Positions 55,601 through 64,000 of a stretch of DNA of 64,000 bases are shown piece by piece. Source of the stretch: Rhizobiales bacterium dw_265 (lineage in GTDB: Bacteria > Pseudomonadota > Alphaproteobacteria > Micropepsales > Micropepsaceae); NCBI GenBank assembly GCA_018449595.1, contig JAAVUU010000003.1, positions 496,001 to 560,000 of the forward strand, read 5' to 3'. Numbering within the stretch: position 1 is the stretch's first letter; every line of letters starts with the position of its first letter. Both the position numbers and the translations under genes were made by a program. The notes beneath the pieces were generated by a model that saw only the letters and a program-made list of their open reading frames with translations, was not told the DNA's origin and did no database searches.

Positions 55601-55669
55601 GGCTTAACGCTTCAGCCTTTCTTTACCGTGAGGTTCCACACTGCGGGCAGCTAAACAGGATTAATGCCC

Positions 55670-56779
55670 ATGGCCCCCCGCGCCACCGTCGTTCGGCGAC
55701 CCCTCACTGCGCCGCAGGAAATGCCCGCCGCCACCGTCTCGCCGATCTTCAGCGGCTTGCGCGACTTCAGCCAGCCCTGGATGGATTTGAACGACAAGAC
55801 GGTGCTGGTCACCGGCGGCACCGGCTCCTTCGGCAAGCATTTCATCAAGACGGTGATCGACCAATACAAGCCGCGCCGGCTGATCGTGTTTTCCCGCGAC
55901 GAACTCAAGCAGTTCGAGATGCAGCAGGAATTTCCGCTCGAGAAATATCCCTTCATCCGCTATTTCATCGGCGATGTGCGCGACAAGGACCGGCTGGAAA
56001 TGGCGCTGAACGGCGTGGATTTCGTGGTCCATGCCGCCGCCATGAAGCAGGTCACCACCGCCGAATACAATCCCTTCGAATGCATCCGCACCAATGTCTT
56101 CGGGGCGGAGAATGTCGTGAGCGCCGCCCTGCGCTGCGGCGTCAAGCGGGTGGTGGCGCTGTCCACCGACAAGGCCGCCAATCCGATCAACCTGTATGGC
56201 GCCTCCAAGCTGGCGTCGGACAAGATTTTTGTCGCCGCCAACAACCTGGCCGGTGCCGACGGCACCCGCTTTTCGGTGGTGCGCTATGGCAATGTCTTCG
56301 GGTCGCGTGGCTCGGTCGTGCCATTCTTCAGGAAGCTGATCGCGGACGGCGCCGACAGCCTGCCGATCACCGACGAACGCATGACCCGTTTCTGGATCAC
56401 GCTGACCCAGGGCGTCAACTTCGTGCTCTCCAGCATGGAGATGATGAAGGGCGGCGAAATCTATGTGCCCAAGATCGCCTCCACCACCATTCCCCAGCTC
56501 GCCACCCTGGTCAGCCCCGGCCACAAGACCCATGTGGTGGGCATCCGCCCGGGCGAGAAACTGCACGAAACCATGATCCCGGCCGACGACGCCCATTGCA
56601 CCGTGGAACTGGACGACCGCTATGTGATCCTGCCCTCGGGCGCGACGGCCCAGCGCGAGGTCTATCTGCATCGCGGCGGCAAGGCGGTGCCGGACGGTTT
56701 CAGCTATTCCAGCGATGGCAATCCGGAAAAGCTGGACGCGCGAGGCCTGCAGCTGCTGTTGCAGATGGCCTATGCCTGA
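55670..56779 (+). CDS. pseB: UDP-GlcNAc 4,6-dehydratase (inverting), PseB/FlmA-like
   Basis: First enzyme of pseudaminic-acid-type synthesis: dehydrates UDP-GlcNAc and inverts C5. LVTGGTGSFGKHFIK, AAAMKQVTTAEYNPFE, LSTDKAANPINLYGASK (catalytic TDK and Y-x3-K) and FWITLTQGV are those of PseB/FlaA1/FlmA. The ATG at 55670 has AGGA nine bases upstream and gives 369 residues. Typical PseB has about 332, which would begin at the Met at 55781, so about 37 extra N-terminal residues are predicted. The stop overlaps the pseC start by eight bases. Confidence 0.94.
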   Translation: MAPRATVVRRPLTAPQEMPAATVSPIFSGLRDFSQPWMDLNDKTVLVTGGTGSFGKHFIKTVIDQYKPRRLIVFSRDELKQFEMQQEFPLEKYPFIRYFIGDVRDKDRLEMALNGVDFVVHAAAMKQVTTAEYNPFECIRTNVFGAENVVSAALRCGVKRVVALSTDKAANPINLYGASKLASDKIFVAANNLAGADGTRFSVVRYGNVFGSRGSVVPFFRKLIADGADSLPITDERMTRFWITLTQGVNFVLSSMEMMKGGEIYVPKIASTTIPQLATLVSPGHKTHVVGIRPGEKLHETMIPADDAHCTVELDDRYVILPSGATAQREVYLHRGGKAVPDGFSYSSDGNPEKLDARGLQLLLQMAYA

Positions 56780-57941
56780 CCGCCCCACGTCCGAATCCGA
56801 AGGCGCAACAGAGCCGGCCTTTCTGCCCTACGGCAAACAGGAGATCGCCGACGCCGACATCAAGGCGGTGGTGGAGGCGCTGGTTTCCGGCTGGCTGACC
56901 ACCGGCCCGCGTGTCGCCGAATTCGAACAGGCCTTTGCCGCCCATTGCGGCGCCAGGGAAGGCGCGGCCGTCAATTCCGGCACCGCCGCCCTGCATTGCG
57001 CCATGCGCGCGATTGGCGTTGCGGAGGGTGATGAAGTCATCGTGCCCGCCATCACCTTCGCCGCCAGCGCCAATGCCGCCGTCTATGAAGGCGCGGCGCC
57101 GGTCTTTGCCGATGTCGAGGCCGACACGCTGCTGATCGACCCCGTTTCGGTGGCGATGAAGATCACCCCCAGGACCAAAGCCATTGTGGCGGTGGATTAT
57201 GGCGGCCAGCCCGCCGATTATGATGCCCTGCGCGATCTGGCCAAGGACCGCGGCATCGCGATCATTGCCGATGCCTGCCACGCCCCCGGCGCAATCTACA
57301 AAGGCCGCAGCACCGGCACCCTGGCCGACATCTCCTGTTTTTCGTTTCATCCCGTCAAGCACATGACCACCTGCGAGGGCGGCATGGCGGTGACGGACAA
57401 TGCGAAGATGGCCGCCCATATGCGCCGCTTCCGCAATCATGGCATCGACAGCGATCATCGCAGCCGCGAGGCGCAAGGTGCGCACGCCTATGACATGGTC
57501 GAGCTAGGCTACAATTACCGCCTGCCGGATGTGCAATGCGCCCTGGGCTTGGCGCAGCTTGCGCGCCTGACCGGCTGGGTCGCGGCGCGCCGGCGGGTTG
57601 CCGGCTGGTATGACGCCGCGCTCGCGGGTCTGGCGGACGTTACGCCGCTCAAGACCCATGGCGACCGTACCCACGCGCATCATCTGTATGTGGTGAAGCT
57701 GGCCAACCATGTGGACCGCGACCAGGCCTTCGCCCGGCTGCGGGCAGAGGGCATCGGCGCCAATGTGCATTATGCTCCGGTGCATCTGCACAGTTTCTAT
57801 CGCCGGCGTGGCCATGGACCCGGTCTTGCGCCGGTGGCGGAAGCCGTCAGCAAGCGGATACTCACCTTGCCGATGTTTCCGGCCATGAACCAGGCCGATG
57901 TCGCGCGCGTTGCCGACGCCTTGCAGCGCGCCACCGCTTAG
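56772..57941 (+). CDS. pseC: UDP-4-amino-4,6-dideoxy-N-acetyl-altrosamine transaminase, PseC/FlmB-like
   Basis: PLP aminotransferase that acts on the PseB product. About 389 residues from the ATG at 56772, which overlaps pseB. FLPYGKQEIADADIKAV, TTGPRVAEFEQAFA, AVNSGTAALHCAM, DACHAPGAIYKGR and the PLP lysine in SFHPVKHMTTCEGG match PseC/FlmB. YNYRLPDVQCALGLAQL and the C-terminal LTLPMFPAMNQADV complete the family pattern. The acetyltransferase, hydrolase, synthase and cytidylyltransferase (PseH, G, I, F) are not in the window. It meets the GH57-like gene tail to tail. Confidence 0.93.
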   Translation: MPDRPTSESEGATEPAFLPYGKQEIADADIKAVVEALVSGWLTTGPRVAEFEQAFAAHCGAREGAAVNSGTAALHCAMRAIGVAEGDEVIVPAITFAASANAAVYEGAAPVFADVEADTLLIDPVSVAMKITPRTKAIVAVDYGGQPADYDALRDLAKDRGIAIIADACHAPGAIYKGRSTGTLADISCFSFHPVKHMTTCEGGMAVTDNAKMAAHMRRFRNHGIDSDHRSREAQGAHAYDMVELGYNYRLPDVQCALGLAQLARLTGWVAARRRVAGWYDAALAGLADVTPLKTHGDRTHAHHLYVVKLANHVDRDQAFARLRAEGIGANVHYAPVHLHSFYRRRGHGPGLAPVAEAVSKRILTLPMFPAMNQADVARVADALQRATA

Positions 57942-59851
57942 GCGGTTTTTCCGACTATCGAAAAACGAAACCGCCGTGGCCCCTCGCGATAGGGCGCGGG
58001 CTTGGCTGTGTCGTCCAGTTCCAGGGCCGACAGCAGCAACTGGCAGAACAGCTTGCCGCCGGCGTTGCGGTGGTTGACCAGGCCAATCAGCGGCGCGGTC
58101 TCGCGGTCCACTTCAATCCGGATGGTGTGCTTCCTGTCCGCCAGTTCCAGCCAGCCTTCCGTCATTCCCAGCGCGCAGGTGGCCGAGACCAGGAACGACA
58201 CCGGCGCGCCATGCTCCACGGTCTGGCCCGCCAGTGCGAACCGCTCCGCCGCGCCGCCATTGGTGGTGACGTAAGCAAGACTGGCCTCGTCGAAGGCATC
58301 GGGCAGCAGAGTGATATGGCCCAGCCGCAGCACGCCGCGTCCCCAGGCCTGCCAACGGCATTCCAGTTCGAAATCGATGCGCGGTTGGTGGGCGTGAAAG
58401 GTCATGACCTTCACGATGGGGCCCAGCGGGGTGGCGATCTCGCCATGCACCGTTGCCCCGCCGTCGGTATTGCGCATGACATGGGTCTTGGCCCATTCCA
58501 GGTCGGTGACCTTGGGCTCGCCCGGCGCCTCGAACACGCAGTCGCCGGTGTACCAGTCGGCCTGCAGCGCGATGTCGTCAAAGGTGCCATGCGGCAGCCC
58601 GCCGATCAGCGGCGTGAAATCCGGCGCGAAACCCGCGCTTTGAATCGCCAGGCCGCGGCGGCGGTCCAGCCGCGCCCGGATCGCCGGGGTTTCGATGTCG
58701 AGAAAGCGGTCTTCAAATGCGTTACCCGTCGCGGCAGGCAGGGGCGCGGGGGCAGTGATACCCAGCCGCGCCTCCATGGCCGCCAGGTCGCGGCAATAGC
58801 GTTCCCAGCGCGCCTGGGTGATATGGGTTCGGAAGTCGCTGGCCCATAGCCGGCACAATTCGCGCCAGTCTTCGTCCGGCGCGCCGGTCTTTTTCAACGC
58901 CGTGTAAATGCGCTGGCAGGCGGCATTGACGCCGATATCGTCGCGACCGCTGACCGCCCAGCGGGTGAGATTGTACTTGCGCTGCTTCTTGACCGGCACC
59001 GGATAGGCGGCGCTTTCCAGGATGAGTTTCTCGCCGCCGATGGGCGCGGCAAGGGCCTGCGATGGCGTCACCATCGCCACGCCGTCCATCGCCGCCACGG
59101 CTTCGAAGGCCGCGAAGATGCGCGCCCATTCCGCGGCCCCCTGGTTGGCTTCCTCGGTGCGATAGCGGCCGGGGCGGAAGCCGAAGATTTCCGCGTCGCT
59201 GGCATAAAGGCACAGCACCCGTTCGCCGGCGCGCTGGTCGCCGACAAAGCGCAGGTAATCGTCCAGCGAGATGTCGTCATGCGCCAGGCGCTGCAGCTTC
59301 TGGAAGGCGACGGTGTTGGTCCACAGGATAGCGATGTCGTGCCCGTCGCTGCCCACCGCGTGTTGCGGCGCATAGCGGAATTCGGGCCGCCAGTCCGGGT
59401 GGAAGCCCGCGACATTGTCCCAGTCCACCAGCAAAGCCCGATAACCGGCATCGCGATAGGCGCCGACCAACCCGCCCGCATAGGCCTGTTCGTTGACCAG
59501 CGCCACGCGCGGCTTCAAGCCCAGCATCGTCCGATAGGCCTGGTTGCCCAGCCGCAGATTGGCCGCGACCATTCCGGCCGGAACCAGCGGCCCGATCATC
59601 TGCGACTGGCCGGAGCCGACAAATTCGATCCTGCCGTCCCTGGCCAGCGCCGCCAGCCGCGCCAGCCAGGCCGGATCGCATTTTTCGATGGCCGCCAGGG
59701 TATAGGCGGTGGCTTCGATGGCGATGGGGCCATGGCGCTCGGCCAGATCGAGCAGCGGGACATAGCAGTTCTTCACCACCGCGCAGCGCTGCTCCTCCTC
59801 GATGGAGGAAAAAGCCAGGTTGAGATGAAAGAGCGCAAAGACGTTCAGCAA
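57938..59851 (-). CDS. Glycoside hydrolase family 57-like protein
   Basis: A 637-residue protein whose first third resembles the GH57 N-terminal barrel: MLNVFALFHLNLAFSSIEEE at the start, EFVGSGQSQMIGPLVP, RVALVNEQAYAGG with a Glu at 121 in the nucleophile position, and YASDAEIFGF with Asp219 in the acid position. GH57 enzymes act on alpha-glucans. Sequence after about residue 300 is beta-rich and unfamiliar. The only start in frame is a TTG at 59851, with no clear ribosome site. It follows an aldo/keto reductase gene by 47 bases. Its place in a sugar-modification locus suggests a role on a glycan or glycoprotein, but substrate is unknown. Confidence 0.72.
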   Translation of the reverse strand: MLNVFALFHLNLAFSSIEEEQRCAVVKNCYVPLLDLAERHGPIAIEATAYTLAAIEKCDPAWLARLAALARDGRIEFVGSGQSQMIGPLVPAGMVAANLRLGNQAYRTMLGLKPRVALVNEQAYAGGLVGAYRDAGYRALLVDWDNVAGFHPDWRPEFRYAPQHAVGSDGHDIAILWTNTVAFQKLQRLAHDDISLDDYLRFVGDQRAGERVLCLYASDAEIFGFRPGRYRTEEANQGAAEWARIFAAFEAVAAMDGVAMVTPSQALAAPIGGEKLILESAAYPVPVKKQRKYNLTRWAVSGRDDIGVNAACQRIYTALKKTGAPDEDWRELCRLWASDFRTHITQARWERYCRDLAAMEARLGITAPAPLPAATGNAFEDRFLDIETPAIRARLDRRRGLAIQSAGFAPDFTPLIGGLPHGTFDDIALQADWYTGDCVFEAPGEPKVTDLEWAKTHVMRNTDGGATVHGEIATPLGPIVKVMTFHAHQPRIDFELECRWQAWGRGVLRLGHITLLPDAFDEASLAYVTTNGGAAERFALAGQTVEHGAPVSFLVSATCALGMTEGWLELADRKHTIRIEVDRETAPLIGLVNHRNAGGKLFCQLLLSALELDDTAKPAPYREGPRRFRFSIVGKTA

Positions 59852-59898
59852 GGCGCGAGCCGCATCGAATCCACATCAGTATGGGGCGTCACGGTGGG

Positions 59899-60726
59899 TC
59901 ACCAGCGCGACGGGGTCAACACCAGCTCGTCGTCCAGCGCCAGTGCCGCCCAGTCCAGCGCGGGCAGGGGCGCGGTGGCGGCGACGAGGATTTCCTCCAG
60001 CTCGGCCGGGCTGGTGACGCCGACCAGCGCCACCGCGATCTGTGGCCGCGACAGCACAAATCCCAGCGCCGCCGCCAGCGGCGTTGCGCCGGCTTCGCGG
60101 ATGCGCGCCTTGATCGCGGCCAGGCGCGGCGCGGCATAGGCCAGCTTCTCCGGCAGCCGCTCCAGGAACAGCAGGCCCTGCAGGAAGATCGAGCGGGCAT
60201 GGATCTCCACCCCCAGGTCGCGCAGCCGCGCCAGGGTGTGGTCGGCCAACAGGCGCTGGTCCAGCAGGCTGAACGGCAGCTGCATCACATCCGGCTGGAA
60301 GCGCGCCGCCAGCGCGGTGGGATTGTCGGCGACATAGATGGAAATGCCGATGCGGCGAAAGACGCCTTCCGCCTTCAGGTCCAGCAAGGCCGGCCATAAT
60401 TCGGGATGGGCCAGGTCGGCGGCGGCATGCACCAGCAGGGTATCGGCGTTCAACAGCTCGGCCGACTGGCGCGTCCGCTCCAGCACGGCGTCTATGCCAT
60501 GCGCCATGCCGATGGTCTTGGTGACAATGCGGAAGGGCCTGGTGTCCAGCGACGCCAGCACGGTTTCCGCCTCGCCGTAATTGGCGGCGGTATCCAGCAG
60601 GCCGATGCCGGCGCCGGCGGCACGGGCCAGAATGGCGCGGGCCGTGTCGCGCGAAACCTGGCCGTGGCTGTTGGACACGCCATAGGCCTGGCCGAACTGC
60701 ACCGTGCCCAGGCCGAGCCTGGCCAT
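59899..60726 (-). CDS. Aldo/keto reductase
   Basis: A 275-residue AKR-fold protein. It begins MARLGLGTVQFGQAYGVSN, the pattern of a subgroup often found in nonulosonate and O-antigen loci. The catalytic tetrad can be traced: Asp and Tyr in GLLDTAANYGEAE, Lys in IVTKT, and His in LLVHAAADLAHPE. SRPQIAVALVGVTSPAELEE is the cofactor-end segment. It should reduce a carbonyl with NAD(P)H, plausibly of a sugar precursor. Its ATG directly follows the stop of the TPR glycosyltransferase, with no gap. Confidence 0.84.
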   Translation of the reverse strand: MARLGLGTVQFGQAYGVSNSHGQVSRDTARAILARAAGAGIGLLDTAANYGEAETVLASLDTRPFRIVTKTIGMAHGIDAVLERTRQSAELLNADTLLVHAAADLAHPELWPALLDLKAEGVFRRIGISIYVADNPTALAARFQPDVMQLPFSLLDQRLLADHTLARLRDLGVEIHARSIFLQGLLFLERLPEKLAYAAPRLAAIKARIREAGATPLAAALGFVLSRPQIAVALVGVTSPAELEEILVAATAPLPALDWAALALDDELVLTPSRW

Positions 60727-62478
60727 TCAGGCTGCGGCCCAATCTGCCAGTTCGGCGGCGAATTTCGGCAGGATGGCGTTCCAGTCGCTGAGCTTTTCCG
60801 GCCAGAAGACACGGGTATCGGGATGCCAGGGATATTCGGCGGTGCCAAGTTGCGGCCAGCCCTGGCCGGCGCTGAGGAACCAGGTCTTGGCGCCCACGGC
60901 GGCGGCGGTGTGGGCGGCGGCGGTGGGGGCCGACAGCACCAGGTCGAGCGCGGCCGACAAAGCGGCGGCGCCGTCAATATCCGCGCGCAGATCGAGGCCC
61001 TCCATCCGGTGGATGGTGACGCCGAATTTCTCCTCGGCGCGCGCCAGTTCGGCGGCGCAATCGCCATACTGCAGGTTGACGAAGCTGATGCCGGGGGTCT
61101 GAAGCACCGGGCCCCAGACATCGATCGGGCTGAAATATTTGGCGCGCTTGGCCCCCAGCATCATGGAGCGCCAGCAGATGCCGACCTTCCTGCCGGGAAG
61201 CGCCGCCAGCTTTTGCTTGAACTCCGCCACCCGCACCGGATCGGGCGTCAGGAAAGGCTTGTGCGGGAAGTCGCTCAGCGACTTGCGGTAATGTTGCAGG
61301 GCGGTGCCCATCGGCGCCCACAGGTCGGGCTTGTTGTCCTTGGCGGCGAACGGCACCAGGCGCAGCGCCTTGTTGCCGTCATCGTCCATCAGGGTGCGGT
61401 CGTCATAGGCGCCGACCTCGGCCTGCGGGTAGGACCGCTGGAACAGCCCCACCATGCGCGGATCGACGCAGATCTGCAGCTTGCCGGTCTCGCCCACCGC
61501 GGCCTGGGCGTCGGGCAGGATGTTGGCGAACATGATCTCGTCGCCCAATCCCTGCTCGCCGACCAGCAGCAGCTTCCTGCCCGCCAGGTCTTCGCCCTGC
61601 CACATCGGCGCATCGATCATGTGATGCAGATAGGCGCGGAAACGCTGGTTGTTGCGGATTTCGTATTCGCGGAAGCCTTCCGCGATCCGGCCCAGCCCGA
61701 TCAGGCAGATGCTGCGGGAATGGCGGGTCTCGATGCGCTCGGCCGGGTCCACCACCAGTTCCAGTGCCTTGTCGTAATTGTCCAGCGCGTCCTGCATCCT
61801 GCTCAGATGCTGATAGGCATAGCCCAGATTGTGATAGGCGCGGGCGAAGTTGGGCGCCAGCCGCGCCGCCTCGTTGTAGAAGACGATGCTTTCATCGGCG
61901 CGGCCCTGCTCGGCCAGCACGGTGGCCAGCGAATTCCACAGGATGGATTCGTGCGGCATGCGATAGATCGCCGCTTTCAGGGTCTCGATCGCCATGTCGG
62001 GTTGGCCCATGTCGCCCTGGATGCCGCCCAGATTGTTGTAGCCCAGCGGCGAATCCGGACAGGCGGCGATATAGAGCCGGAACATCCGCGCCGCGCCCTC
62101 GGTCAGCTTGAGATTCCAGGCGGTGAGGCCTAGGTTGATCAGCAGTTCGGGATCTTCGGGGTCGAGCTGAAAGGACCGCTCATAGGTCACCAGCGCCTTG
62201 TGCAGATGGCCCATGCGCTCCAGCGCCATCGCCAGCACATGGAAGGCCTTGGCATTCGTATCATCCGCCTCGGTCGCCTTCAGCGCCCACTGGCCGGCCT
62301 TGGCGATGTCGCCCTTGCGCCAGGTGCGGATGCCGCGCTTGAGGAAGACATTGGAGCGGTGGCGGGCTTTTTCCCGCGCCACTTCGTTGACCAGCGCCTC
62401 CAGTTTGTCGATGGCCTGCAGGCGCGCATCCACACCGGACTTGGCGTCCACGCTGGGCAGGGGAAGGACCTGGGGCAT
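60727..62478 (-). CDS. TPR-containing flagellin glycosyltransferase, FlmG-like
   Basis: A 583-residue protein with about six tetratricopeptide repeats in the N-terminal half (for example AFHVLAMALERMGHLHKALV, RAYHNLGYAYQHLSRMQDAL). A GT-B-like C-terminal domain follows with GRKLLLVGEQGLGDEIMFAN, GRKVGICWRSMMLG and LDLVLSAPTAAAHTAAAVGA. This two-part layout is that of Caulobacter FlmG, which binds flagellins through the TPR region and adds pseudaminic-type sugar. PseB/PseC genes nearby fit. It lies first in the minus-strand series TPR-GT, AKR, GH57-like. Other TPR glycosyltransferases with unknown acceptors are the alternative. Confidence 0.82.
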   Translation of the reverse strand: MPQVLPLPSVDAKSGVDARLQAIDKLEALVNEVAREKARHRSNVFLKRGIRTWRKGDIAKAGQWALKATEADDTNAKAFHVLAMALERMGHLHKALVTYERSFQLDPEDPELLINLGLTAWNLKLTEGAARMFRLYIAACPDSPLGYNNLGGIQGDMGQPDMAIETLKAAIYRMPHESILWNSLATVLAEQGRADESIVFYNEAARLAPNFARAYHNLGYAYQHLSRMQDALDNYDKALELVVDPAERIETRHSRSICLIGLGRIAEGFREYEIRNNQRFRAYLHHMIDAPMWQGEDLAGRKLLLVGEQGLGDEIMFANILPDAQAAVGETGKLQICVDPRMVGLFQRSYPQAEVGAYDDRTLMDDDGNKALRLVPFAAKDNKPDLWAPMGTALQHYRKSLSDFPHKPFLTPDPVRVAEFKQKLAALPGRKVGICWRSMMLGAKRAKYFSPIDVWGPVLQTPGISFVNLQYGDCAAELARAEEKFGVTIHRMEGLDLRADIDGAAALSAALDLVLSAPTAAAHTAAAVGAKTWFLSAGQGWPQLGTAEYPWHPDTRVFWPEKLSDWNAILPKFAAELADWAAA

Positions 62479-62524
62479 CGGGCTCTCTGGGTGAGAAATC
62501 AGCCTCTATCAAAGCGGTTTATCG

Positions 62525-62539
62525 TTAACCCGGGGTGAA
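62525..62539. promoter_or_regulatory. Possible CtrA-type box
   Basis: TTAA-N7-TGAA (62525-62539) differs by one base from the TTAA-N7-TTAA half-site pair bound by the alphaproteobacterial cell-cycle regulator CtrA. It lies 47-61 bases before the FlmG-like start and inside the divergent gap with the ThDP gene. CtrA controls many flagellar genes; one short near-match is weak evidence. Confidence 0.3.
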
Positions 62540-62611
62540 CGGCGGGCGTCAGCTTTTGTTAACCATACCGTCTCATCTTGGCGTCGAGACCGGCCCAAAG
62601 ATGGTTGCCCT

Positions 62612-64000
62612 ATGTCAGTGATGGATATCCGCCCTTTCGCCTTGTCGAAGGCAGACCAGGCCAGGGAATTCCTGGGCGCCGATATTGTCTCGGATGCCTT
62701 TCTGCGCAACCGCATCAAGCACGTCTTTATCTATCCCGGCGGCACCATCGCGCCCATCCTCGATGCCATCGAGAACAAGTCGAAAATCGAGATCGTCTGC
62801 CTGCGCGCCGAGCAGGGCGCCGGCTATGCCGCGCTGGGCTATGCCCGCGTCACCGGCAGGCCGGCGGTGTTCATGGTCACCTCCGGTCCCGGCGTCACCA
62901 ATGCCGTCACGCCGATTGCCGATGCGTACTATGACAATATTCCGCTGGTGGTGATTACCGGCCAGGTCGGCACGGGCGACATGCGCGGCAATCTGCCCGT
63001 CAAGCAGCGCGGTTTCCAGGAAGTCGATACCGTGGACCTGATGAGGCCCATCACCAAGGCGGCCTTCCTGGTGAAGGATATCCGCGAACTGCCCAATGTC
63101 ATGGAAGCGGCCTTCTTCCTGGCGCGCTCAGGCCGCCAGGGTCCGGTGGTGGTGGACCTGCCGATGAATGTGCAGCGCGGCACTTGTGCCGGCTGCGATT
63201 TCTTTCCGGTCGAGATGCGCAGCGATGTCGCGCCCGCGCTGCCGAAAGACAAGATCGCCACCCTGGCGCGCTGGATCGGCGAGGCCCAGCGCCCGGTCAT
63301 CCTGGCCGGCGGCGGCATGATCGCATCCGGCGCGATGAAGGAACTGCGCGCCCTGGCCAACCGCCACAAAATTCCCGTCGCCATGAGCATGCCGGGCATG
63401 GGCGCCTATCCGTCGGACGCGCCGCTGTCGCTGGGGCTGTGCGGCTATGCCGGCAGCCAGTGGGCCAACATGGCGATGTACAAATCCGACTTGCTGATCG
63501 GCATCGGCACCACCTTCCATCTGCGCCAGACCGGCAGCCTGCCGGAGCGCACGGTGGAGCAGGGGCGCGTCGCCCGCATCGACCTGGACGGCAACGAGTT
63601 GCGCCACAGCCGCGTGCCGCTGGACCTGGACATTCAGGCCGACGCCAAAAGCGCCTTGGTGGCGCTGGCGAAAACGCTGGACGCGCCCGCGAAACGCACG
63701 GCCTGGCGCAAGACGATTGCCGGCTGGAAAAGCCAATATGCGCTGATGACGGGCAAACCATCGAAACTGTCCAAGCCGCAGGAGATCATCATCGCCGCCA
63801 ATCAGGCGGTGCGCGGCGCCGCCATCGTCACCACCGGCGTCGGCCAGCACCAATGCTGGGTGCCGCGTCATTTCGATTTCAACAATCCCAGCCGCATGCT
63901 GCTGACCTCGTCGGGGCATGGCACCATGGGCTTTGACCTGCCCGCCGCCATCGGCGCGAAAGTCGCGTCTCCCGACAGGCCGGTGATCTGTTTTGTCGGC
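62612..64000 (+). CDS. Thiamine-diphosphate enzyme, acetolactate-synthase-like (5' part)
   Basis: An incomplete gene of at least 463 codons running off the right edge. From the ATG at 62612 (MSVMDIRPFALSK; the second ATG is at 62621) it has the PYR domain with VFIYPGGTIAPILDAI, catalytic Glu67 in LRAEQGAGYAALGYARVTG and FMVTSGPGVTNAVTPIADA. The central domain has RPVILAGGGMIASGAM, and the PP domain begins with TTGVGQHQCWVPRHFDF and SSGHGTMGFDLPAAIGA. Family members do carboligation or decarboxylation of 2-keto acids. No small regulatory subunit is visible. Near pseBC and a flagellin transferase, it could instead build a branched or extended sugar, as YerE does. It is divergent from the FlmG-like gene. 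Confidence 0.85.
   Translation, partial: MSVMDIRPFALSKADQAREFLGADIVSDAFLRNRIKHVFIYPGGTIAPILDAIENKSKIEIVCLRAEQGAGYAALGYARVTGRPAVFMVTSGPGVTNAVTPIADAYYDNIPLVVITGQVGTGDMRGNLPVKQRGFQEVDTVDLMRPITKAAFLVKDIRELPNVMEAAFFLARSGRQGPVVVDLPMNVQRGTCAGCDFFPVEMRSDVAPALPKDKIATLARWIGEAQRPVILAGGGMIASGAMKELRALANRHKIPVAMSMPGMGAYPSDAPLSLGLCGYAGSQWANMAMYKSDLLIGIGTTFHLRQTGSLPERTVEQGRVARIDLDGNELRHSRVPLDLDIQADAKSALVALAKTLDAPAKRTAWRKTIAGWKSQYALMTGKPSKLSKPQEIIIAANQAVRGAAIVTTGVGQHQCWVPRHFDFNNPSRMLLTSSGHGTMGFDLPAAIGAKVASPDRPVICFVG

Follow-up and report, generated by a model that had tools for sequence, protein, structure and literature searches.

Why would a flagellin-sugar locus encode an acetolactate-synthase-like enzyme and a relative of starch-metabolizing glycoside hydrolases? 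The question is posed by one end of a 64,000-nucleotide stretch of Rhizobiales bacterium dw_265 (the window; C15:496001–560000), where six genes stand together: pseB, pseC, a GH57-like gene, an aldo/keto reductase gene, a gene for a FlmG-like protein with tetratricopeptide repeats (TPR) and a GT-B domain, and a gene for an acetolactate-synthase-like thiamine diphosphate (ThDP) enzyme. An earlier note on this stretch had placed all six correctly, as we confirmed, and had read them as an atypical flagellin-sugar pathway founded on PseB and PseC, a proposal that our analysis supports. Outside its view lay the second half of the operon: the contig runs on past 64 kb, with genes for a short-chain dehydrogenase/reductase (SDR), an ATP-grasp ligase, and a short NeuB. 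We interpret the locus, with moderate confidence, as the larger part of a pathway to a cytidine monophosphate (CMP)-activated nonulosonic acid of the pseudaminic (Pse) type, its second amine bearing a nitrogen-free polyhydroxy acyl group, for use on flagellin. Gene content, protein families, operon structure, recurrence, and catalytic residues were read from the genomes; substrates, step order, and acyl structure are what we propose from them.

An Operon with a Divergent ThDP Enzyme

The ThDP, SDR, ATP-grasp, and NeuB genes form one tight operon (spacings +1, −4, and −8 bp), in which the checked ATP-grasp start overlaps the SDR stop as ATGA. Because homologous sets recur in several phyla, we do not attribute the gene arrangement to chance. 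The ThDP enzyme falls below the cut-off of the biosynthetic acetolactate synthase model TIGR00118 (Table 1), on which the genome's own IlvB reaches 794 bits. No ilvH follows its gene—the SDR gene is next—and an ordinary ilvB (1093 bits, cut-off 974) lies with ilvH and ilvC, each above its cut-off, on contig C1. On a profile of pathway ThDP enzymes (five rows, the window's own sequence among them), the enzyme scores 1011 bits, against a best score of 497 in the 59 other genomes of an even phylum sample and 479 for the genome's own IlvB. That the gene is an ilvB copy in ordinary metabolism, beside unrelated neighbors, would fit its top family matches, which are acetolactate synthases; the subthreshold score, the missing ilvH, the separate ilvB–ilvH–ilvC set, the gap on the pathway profile, and the recurrence of the operon in unrelated genomes make this identity hardly credible, and we rejected it. 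An ordinary ilvB with ilvH downstream, which the earlier note had named as the finding that would speak against its proposal, is not what the locus contains.

Among the 60 Protein Data Bank (PDB) entries listed, the enzyme is closest to acetohydroxyacid synthase (AHAS; 372 bits), and entries not named acetolactate or acetohydroxyacid synthase reach at most 227 bits. In alignment, all seven pathway ThDP enzymes keep the AHAS arginine that we take to bind the acceptor's carboxylate; they also share an insertion before the GFQE motif and form a clade of their own.

The earlier note had suggested a different acceptor: the ThDP enzyme would add a two-carbon branch to PseB's uridine diphosphate (UDP)-4-keto sugar and a reductase would follow, so that the flagellin sugar itself would be branched. 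PseB does make a 4-keto sugar, and an SDR gene adjoins the ThDP gene. Such chemistry is performed on a cytidine diphosphate (CDP)-4-keto sugar by YerE, one of the YerE-like carboligases of yersiniose and other branched sugars, with which the window enzyme would have in common a two-carbon transfer yielding a tertiary alcohol (PMC12247030, accessible part). The acceptor of these carboligases is the isolated ketone of a CDP-sugar, whereas a keto acid is likelier for the window enzyme. Proximity to AHAS, the arginine in 7 of 7 enzymes (a comparison made without a YerE control, since PDB names do not tell which entries are YerE or JanthE), the accompanying ATP-grasp ligase, and the unbranched core of the Sfm-type glycan in Shewanella oneidensis (discussed below) together make a branched flagellin sugar improbable.

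The note had further cast the aldo/keto reductase as an enzyme that could reduce the ThDP product. We demoted this candidate: the SDR, whose gene follows the ThDP gene at a distance of 1 bp, is the likelier partner, and of 80 related loci only 4 have an aldo/keto reductase above our chosen limit. The reductase adjoins the GH57-like gene in loci L069 and L070 and lies in the same locus in L073. The protein is the genome's only strong match to the KidO family (NF011432) and sits at that model's cut-off (Table 1), so a cell-cycle role is possible.

Proposed Pathway

In the pathway that we propose, PseB and PseC would produce UDP-4-amino-4,6-dideoxy-AltNAc. A 2-keto acid, which is probably a 3-deoxy-ulosonic sugar acid, would receive a two-carbon unit from the ThDP enzyme, with pyruvate as the probable donor, and the SDR would reduce the new ketone. 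The ATP-grasp enzyme would then couple the resulting acid as an amide to the PseC-made 4-amine (at C7 once the sugar is finished), the amine that in the canonical pathway receives its acetyl group from PseH. The PseG half of a fusion protein encoded on contig C19 would remove UDP, the NeuB, which lacks a SAF domain, would condense the bulky sugar with phosphoenolpyruvate, the other half of the fusion would add CMP, and FlmG-type transferases would deliver the sugar to flagellin. A version with a split transketolase in place of the AHAS-like enzyme (described below) would follow the same logic with a hydroxylated two-carbon unit.

Set against the canonical Pse pathway (PseBCHGIF), the genome has PseB and PseC above their cut-offs; membership fails at NeuB, where in place of a PseI with SAF the genome's sole NeuB is 287 aa long and SAF-less. 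Most of this short NeuB aligns with SpsE, and a short tail, which in three aligned short NeuBs reads WRADPxDGxRP, stands where SAF would follow. The search past 64 kb that the earlier note had recommended yielded this NeuB (Table 1). Elsewhere in the genome, the PseG-like fusion lies on C19, and no protein passes the PseH cut-off of 93 bits, the top score being 29 (on a model that also misses a congener's candidate of 61 bits).

Contig C19 carries flgI, the other FlmG-type gene, the CMP-sugar synthetase/PseG fusion, a methyltransferase, and two flagellins. The fusion scores 84.8 bits on the PseG model (cut-off 153.6), contains a GYGHVKR motif, and has a KdsB-like N-terminal half; no PseF match was obtained for it at the limit used. 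The methyltransferase, near the flagellins and outside the operon, is 67% identical to methyltransferase MT1 of a congener. The window's FlmG-type gene is the second of two found in the genome, either of which may be the one that acts. Its product is a candidate flagellin glycosyltransferase, with a predicted model (predicted local distance difference test score, pLDDT, 89.7) in which a TPR array precedes a GT-B domain. Residues 295–583 align with the GT9 structure 3tov_A (Z 17.9, rmsd 3.4, 268 aligned), and a Foldseek search places SPINDLY/OGT on top with low TM-scores. The ATP-grasp protein has an L-amino acid ligase, 3vot, as its top PDB match (8.5e-30).

If the proposal holds, it explains a ThDP enzyme and an ATP-grasp ligase beside flagellins, assigns a testable step to most of the genes, and offers a reason for the missing clear PseH and the SAF-less NeuB in these clusters. 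It would also move a GH57-family protein, unexpectedly, from starch metabolism to nonulosonate biosynthesis, and it predicts the same glycan class in many uncultured Alphaproteobacteria, Desulfuromonas- and Desulfovibrio-like bacteria, and others. The pathway looks widespread and little studied. The main text of two nonulosonate surveys (PMC7371886 and PMC13317340) does not mention ATP-grasp, transketolase, acetolactate, thiamine, or glycoside hydrolase, and the literature searched, with subscription papers mostly outside its scope, held no paper combining flagellin, glycosylation, transketolase, and ATP-grasp.

Relation to Known Flagellin Glycosylation Systems

The operon resembles sfmABCDE of S. 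oneidensis MR-1, which encodes a NeuB (290 aa), a thiamine pyrophosphate (TPP) enzyme annotated as ilvB (581), a FabG-like reductase (255), a methyltransferase (395), and an ATP-grasp protein (412) (PMC3765264, cited throughout from the accessible part of its text). By type, size, and spacing, the short NeuB, the IlvB-like TPP enzyme, the SDR, and the ATP-grasp protein of the window operon are like those of Sfm. Unlike Sfm, the window's genome has FlmG-type rather than Maf transferases, a GH57-like gene, a CMP-synthetase/PseG fusion, and its methyltransferase on another contig. Deletion of sfmA–D leaves flagellins at unmodified size; PseB and PseC are encoded outside the sfm operon, a clear PseI is reported absent, and the authors suggest a carboxylate-amine ligase activity for the ATP-grasp protein (PMC3765264).

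The glycan that the earlier note expected to be undescribed is so only in part. The five-gene set was described as sfmABCDE, and the accessible text gives no pathway steps for the TPP or ATP-grasp enzyme and no GH57 gene (PMC3765264). For the Shewanella glycan, of a 274 + 236 Da type, the genes are known and the enzyme steps unassigned in that text. On this comparison, we class the window set with the Sfm-type pathways, which derive their flagellin sugar from Pse, as a variant that would transfer the sugar by FlmG-type enzymes and that includes a GH57-like protein.

As in the window, Caulobacter has a PseB/PseC-type start and uses FlmG (596 aa, TPR and GT-B) as flagellin transferase. It differs in having the acetyltransferase FlmH and making pseudaminic acid, and, in the accessible part of the source, ThDP, ATP-grasp, and GH57 proteins are absent among its six enzymes.

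A GH57-Like Enzyme in the Gene Set

The GH57-like protein consists, in a predicted model (pLDDT 91.9), of a GH57 barrel (residues 1–365) and a galactose-mutarotase-like C-terminal domain (380–637). The model aligns with the GH57 structure 9kyq_B (Z 33.0, rmsd 2.7, 329 aligned) and with 4bze_B (Z 18.5, rmsd 3.1, 226 aligned). By sequence, PDB matches are weak (best E 0.48), and there is no NCBIfam match. The apparent catalytic residues to which the earlier note had drawn attention are borne out: E121 and D219 correspond in alignment to positions 123 and 214 of Thermococcus litoralis 4-α-glucanotransferase (1k1w), presumably its nucleophile and acid/base, and both are invariant in 32 relatives, as is a lysine/arginine cluster (K288, K289, K292, and R297). 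The protein thus has its fold and both catalytic residues in common with the GH57 family (4-α-glucanotransferase, branching enzyme, and amylopullulanase) and differs from it in its weak sequence match, its mutarotase-like domain, the invariant cluster, and its nonulosonate context. Our guess is that its substrate is an anionic nucleotide sugar or a sugar acid. It may be a UDP-sugar hydrolase, although the C19 fusion keeps a PseG-like half with its GYGHVKR motif; in one distant locus, L157, the PseG-like half of the fusion was not recognized. Among the literature matches listed, no paper joined a GH57 term with a nonulosonate term.

An alignment scan of genome contigs for the GH57-like protein gave 103 loci, of which the best 80, from related genomes, were kept. 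They span Alphaproteobacteria, Desulfuromonas-, Desulfovibrio-, and Acidobacteria-type genomes, Planctomycetota, a Bacteroidetes bin, and an archaeal bin, the bins being possibly contaminated. With bit-score limits of our choosing, the 42 loci flanked on each side by 9 kb or more held a nonulosonate gene in 38 cases, an ATP-grasp gene in 35, an SDR gene in 30, and a flagellin gene in 22; this co-occurrence analysis, another of the note's recommendations, thus found the set recurring. A split transketolase pair was present in 23 of the 42 and an AHAS-like ThDP enzyme in 6; one locus with 338 bits on TKC and no TKN match, L135, was counted as without the pair. The two ThDP kinds never occurred together (0 of 80 loci), a zero that is no significance test because the loci are the best 80 of 103 and the genomes are related. 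Among the 48 NeuBs of the surveyed loci, the window's included and with tails judged by length rather than by a SAF model, 40 have at most 22 residues after the domain; one more is cut by a contig end and one is followed by 338 residues. Beyond these loci, an even class sample held the GH57-like protein in 10 of 385 genomes, including the genome studied here and two congeners.

The gene set regularly includes the GH57-like enzyme. We rejected the view that it is a mere neighbor because it also turns up when the ThDP enzyme alone is the search key, a form of recurrence independent of GH57. Searching with the ThDP profile only found 1 of 398 genomes in the phylum (the genome itself) and 4 of 369 in another class. 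All four of the latter loci have an ATP-grasp gene, a CMP-synthetase domain, and a methyltransferase-like gene (weak, 73–90 bits); GH57 is present in three (the contig of the fourth ends), and SDR and short NeuB are present in two, with one contig cut.

Bins labeled archaeon, Bacteroidetes, KSB1, and Anammoxibacter (L134, L137, L123, and L141) contain the GH57-like protein; in L134 it accompanies ATP-grasp, SDR, and transketolase halves. Cultured relatives have the cluster too: that of Rhizomicrobium electricum DSM 21034 (L097) is of the transketolase type, and Magnetospirillum aberrantis SpK (L121) has GH57 and pseBC.

Two clusters, L156 (14104–16040) and L120, have two NeuB genes each, one short and one longer, and the second might make an acid precursor. 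These pairs would suit another assignment, in which the short NeuB makes the 3-deoxy-ulosonic acid of the acyl group and a different enzyme is the nonulosonate synthase. The dw_265 genome has a single NeuB, and S. oneidensis is reported without a clear PseI (PMC3765264); we consider this assignment very unlikely.

Probable Module Exchange Within the Genus

We compared 24 congeners: 13 have a NeuB 66–70% identical to the window's, the NeuBs of 3 others are all distant (33–42%), and the remaining 8 have none at the limit used. Of the first group, 12 carry GH57-like, ATP-grasp, and SDR genes in the same flagellar locus, close to flagellins (the contig of the thirteenth ends first), and these congeners have a split transketolase, as two halves, where the window has its AHAS-like enzyme. 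All 13 congeners with the short NeuB have the GH57-like gene, as do 3 of the 11 others. In the flagellar locus of one congener, G010, the stretch between NeuB and pseB encodes a true PseF (277.5 bits, cut-off 205.7) and a double GNAT that matches PseH at 61 bits, below the cut-off of 93; the NeuB of G010 has SAF, and its genome has no GH57-like gene. Modules thus look to be swapped: an acetyltransferase with a SAF-bearing NeuB for acid-building enzymes with a ligase and a SAF-less NeuB.

Divergence within the window's own set is uneven. PseB is 68–78% identical to congeners' PseB, and GH57 and NeuB are likewise near theirs; PseC (40–43%), ATP-grasp (38–39%), and SDR (mostly 39–43%, 61% in one) are distant, and PseC was therefore probably exchanged. 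Directly after its methyltransferase and near the flagellins, C19 also holds a 261-aa ATP-grasp fragment (L059:12292–13077), 59% identical to the ligases of two congeners, 52% to that of a third, and 30% to the window's, apparently a relic of a lost module. Because PseC, ATP-grasp, and SDR diverge while PseB, GH57, and NeuB stay close, and because of this remnant, we infer that an AHAS-type module replaced a transketolase-type module in this lineage. A broader generalization is tentative, and we put it at somewhat short of an even chance: across several phyla, the AHAS-like enzyme and the split transketolase would be interchangeable sources of a branched polyhydroxy acid, to be attached to the sugar's amine by an ATP-grasp ligase instead of acetyl, the GH57-like protein would be a new regular nonulosonate enzyme, and the decayed ATP-grasp fragment at the flagellar locus of this lineage would be left over from an exchange of one module for the other.

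Congeners' flagellar sugar clusters hold extra methyltransferases, and between them, at L041:12066–13010 and in further congeners, a sulfotransferase-family gene (PF13469) that is absent from the genome's own stretches L007 and L059. In another congener, G009, L052:7143–10874 places beside FlmG a KduI/IolB-like protein, an SDR, another ATP-grasp protein, methyltransferases, and a NeuB with a SAF-sized tail. This module suggests yet another acyl group, perhaps derived from 3-deoxyhexulosonate.

Glycan Masses and Evidence Against the Pathway

In S. oneidensis, the inner unit of the flagellin glycan, C11H18N2O6, agrees with unbranched, mono-N-acetyl Pse, one acetyl short of Pse5Ac7Ac, and has an apparent basic amine; the outer group, C9H16O7, is nitrogen-free, can bear up to two more methyls, and is easily lost in source (PMC3765264). 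An amide of a 4-hydroxy acid would readily be lost as a lactone, leaving the amine, which would match the spectra. By mass arithmetic, 5 of 132 acceptor/donor/methylation combinations fit C9H16O7, among them 3-deoxyheptulosonate with an acetyl-type unit (+ H2 − water), 2-ketogluconate with an acetyl-type unit and a methyl, 2-keto-3-deoxygluconate with a ketol and a methyl, and 2-ketopentonate with a ketol and two methyls. The arithmetic supports a compound class, not one structure. The acyl acid of Treponema denticola is reportedly 2-methoxy-4,5,6-trihydroxyhexanoic acid, and 274 plus this acyl gives 450.18. A glycan of 450.2 Da is cited in the accessible part of PMC9481697.

Several points weigh against the acylated-nonulosonate pathway. 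The fifth fit, a reduced methylated 3-deoxy-manno-octulosonate (KDO), involves no ThDP step, so the formula does not fix the route, and the C9H16O7 group could be a glycosidically linked sugar. In that event, the ThDP enzyme and SDR would make a separate neutral branched sugar carried on the nonulosonate, and the ATP-grasp protein would do something else. A methylated octose residue fits C9H16O7 arithmetically, the outer portion is easily lost, and the set includes extra methyltransferases; the inner unit, however, is one acetyl short with an apparent basic amine, as expected if the outer group sat on the amine, and no further glycosyltransferase is constant in the set among the families mapped. 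We consider such a separate sugar unlikely. Deletion of the ATP-grasp gene sfmE produced a pronounced, slightly smaller mass shift (PMC3765264), and the ligase may therefore not be needed for transfer. The link to Sfm is one of annotated type, size, and operon content.

Further points concern the genomes. The argument from PseH is weak: 0 of 41 genomes pass the PseH cut-off, the G010 candidate included, and congener G004, which has the ATP-grasp module, encodes two GNATs that reach 62 and 60 bits on that model. The latter is a single GNAT of 208 aa (L063:5765–6391) encoded after the flagellins of the same locus. Among the 42 long-flank loci, 13 have no recognized ThDP enzyme or transketolase pair and 4 no recognized nonulosonate gene; 6 of the 48 NeuBs have a SAF-sized tail (54–70 residues); and in the ThDP-keyed locus L158 neither SDR nor NeuB was found within 9 kb upstream of the ThDP gene.

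In G004, the 60-bit GNAT stands beside a further TPR-containing protein (L063:5765–8319).

Layout of the Locus

Table 1. Genes of the proposed flagellin-sugar pathway in and beyond the window. Positions above 64000 continue the window's numbering; positions in L007 are given in brackets.
Feature	Position	Strand	Evidence
pseB, UDP-GlcNAc 4,6-dehydratase (inverting)	55781–56779	+	TIGR03589 511 bits, cut-off 408
pseC, 4-aminotransferase	56772–57941	+	TIGR03588 425.6 bits, cut-off 423.5
GH57-like enzyme	57938–59851	−	PF03065 E 4.8e-11, 42.9 bits vs. 21.2 cut-off
Aldo/keto reductase, KidO-borderline	59899–60726	−	PF00248; NF011432 243.9–245 vs. 244
FlmG-type protein, TPR array and GT-B domain, candidate flagellin glycosyltransferase	60727–62478	−	TPR match; predicted model
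ThDP enzyme, acetolactate-synthase-like, 584 aa	62612–64366 (window ends at 64000)	+	TIGR00118 518 bits, cut-off 538
SDR	64368–65096 (L007:10369–11097)	+	PF13561/PF00106
ATP-grasp ligase with L-amino-acid-ligase C-terminal domain	65093–66307 (L007:11094–12308)	+	PF18603 7.7e-22
Short SAF-less NeuB, 287 aa	66300–67163 (L007:12301–13164)	+	PF03102 3.1e-57; no SAF match

The starts given for pseB and pseC are the likelier ones within longer open reading frames (55664–56779 and 56715–57941, both on the + strand). The two genes converge on the GH57-like gene, which shares the opposite strand with the aldo/keto reductase and FlmG-like genes; these three make up a second unit, and 133 bp separate it from the divergently oriented ThDP gene. 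Downstream of NeuB and convergent with it lie an FAD oxidase gene and then a recG-like gene, the latter named from its translation.

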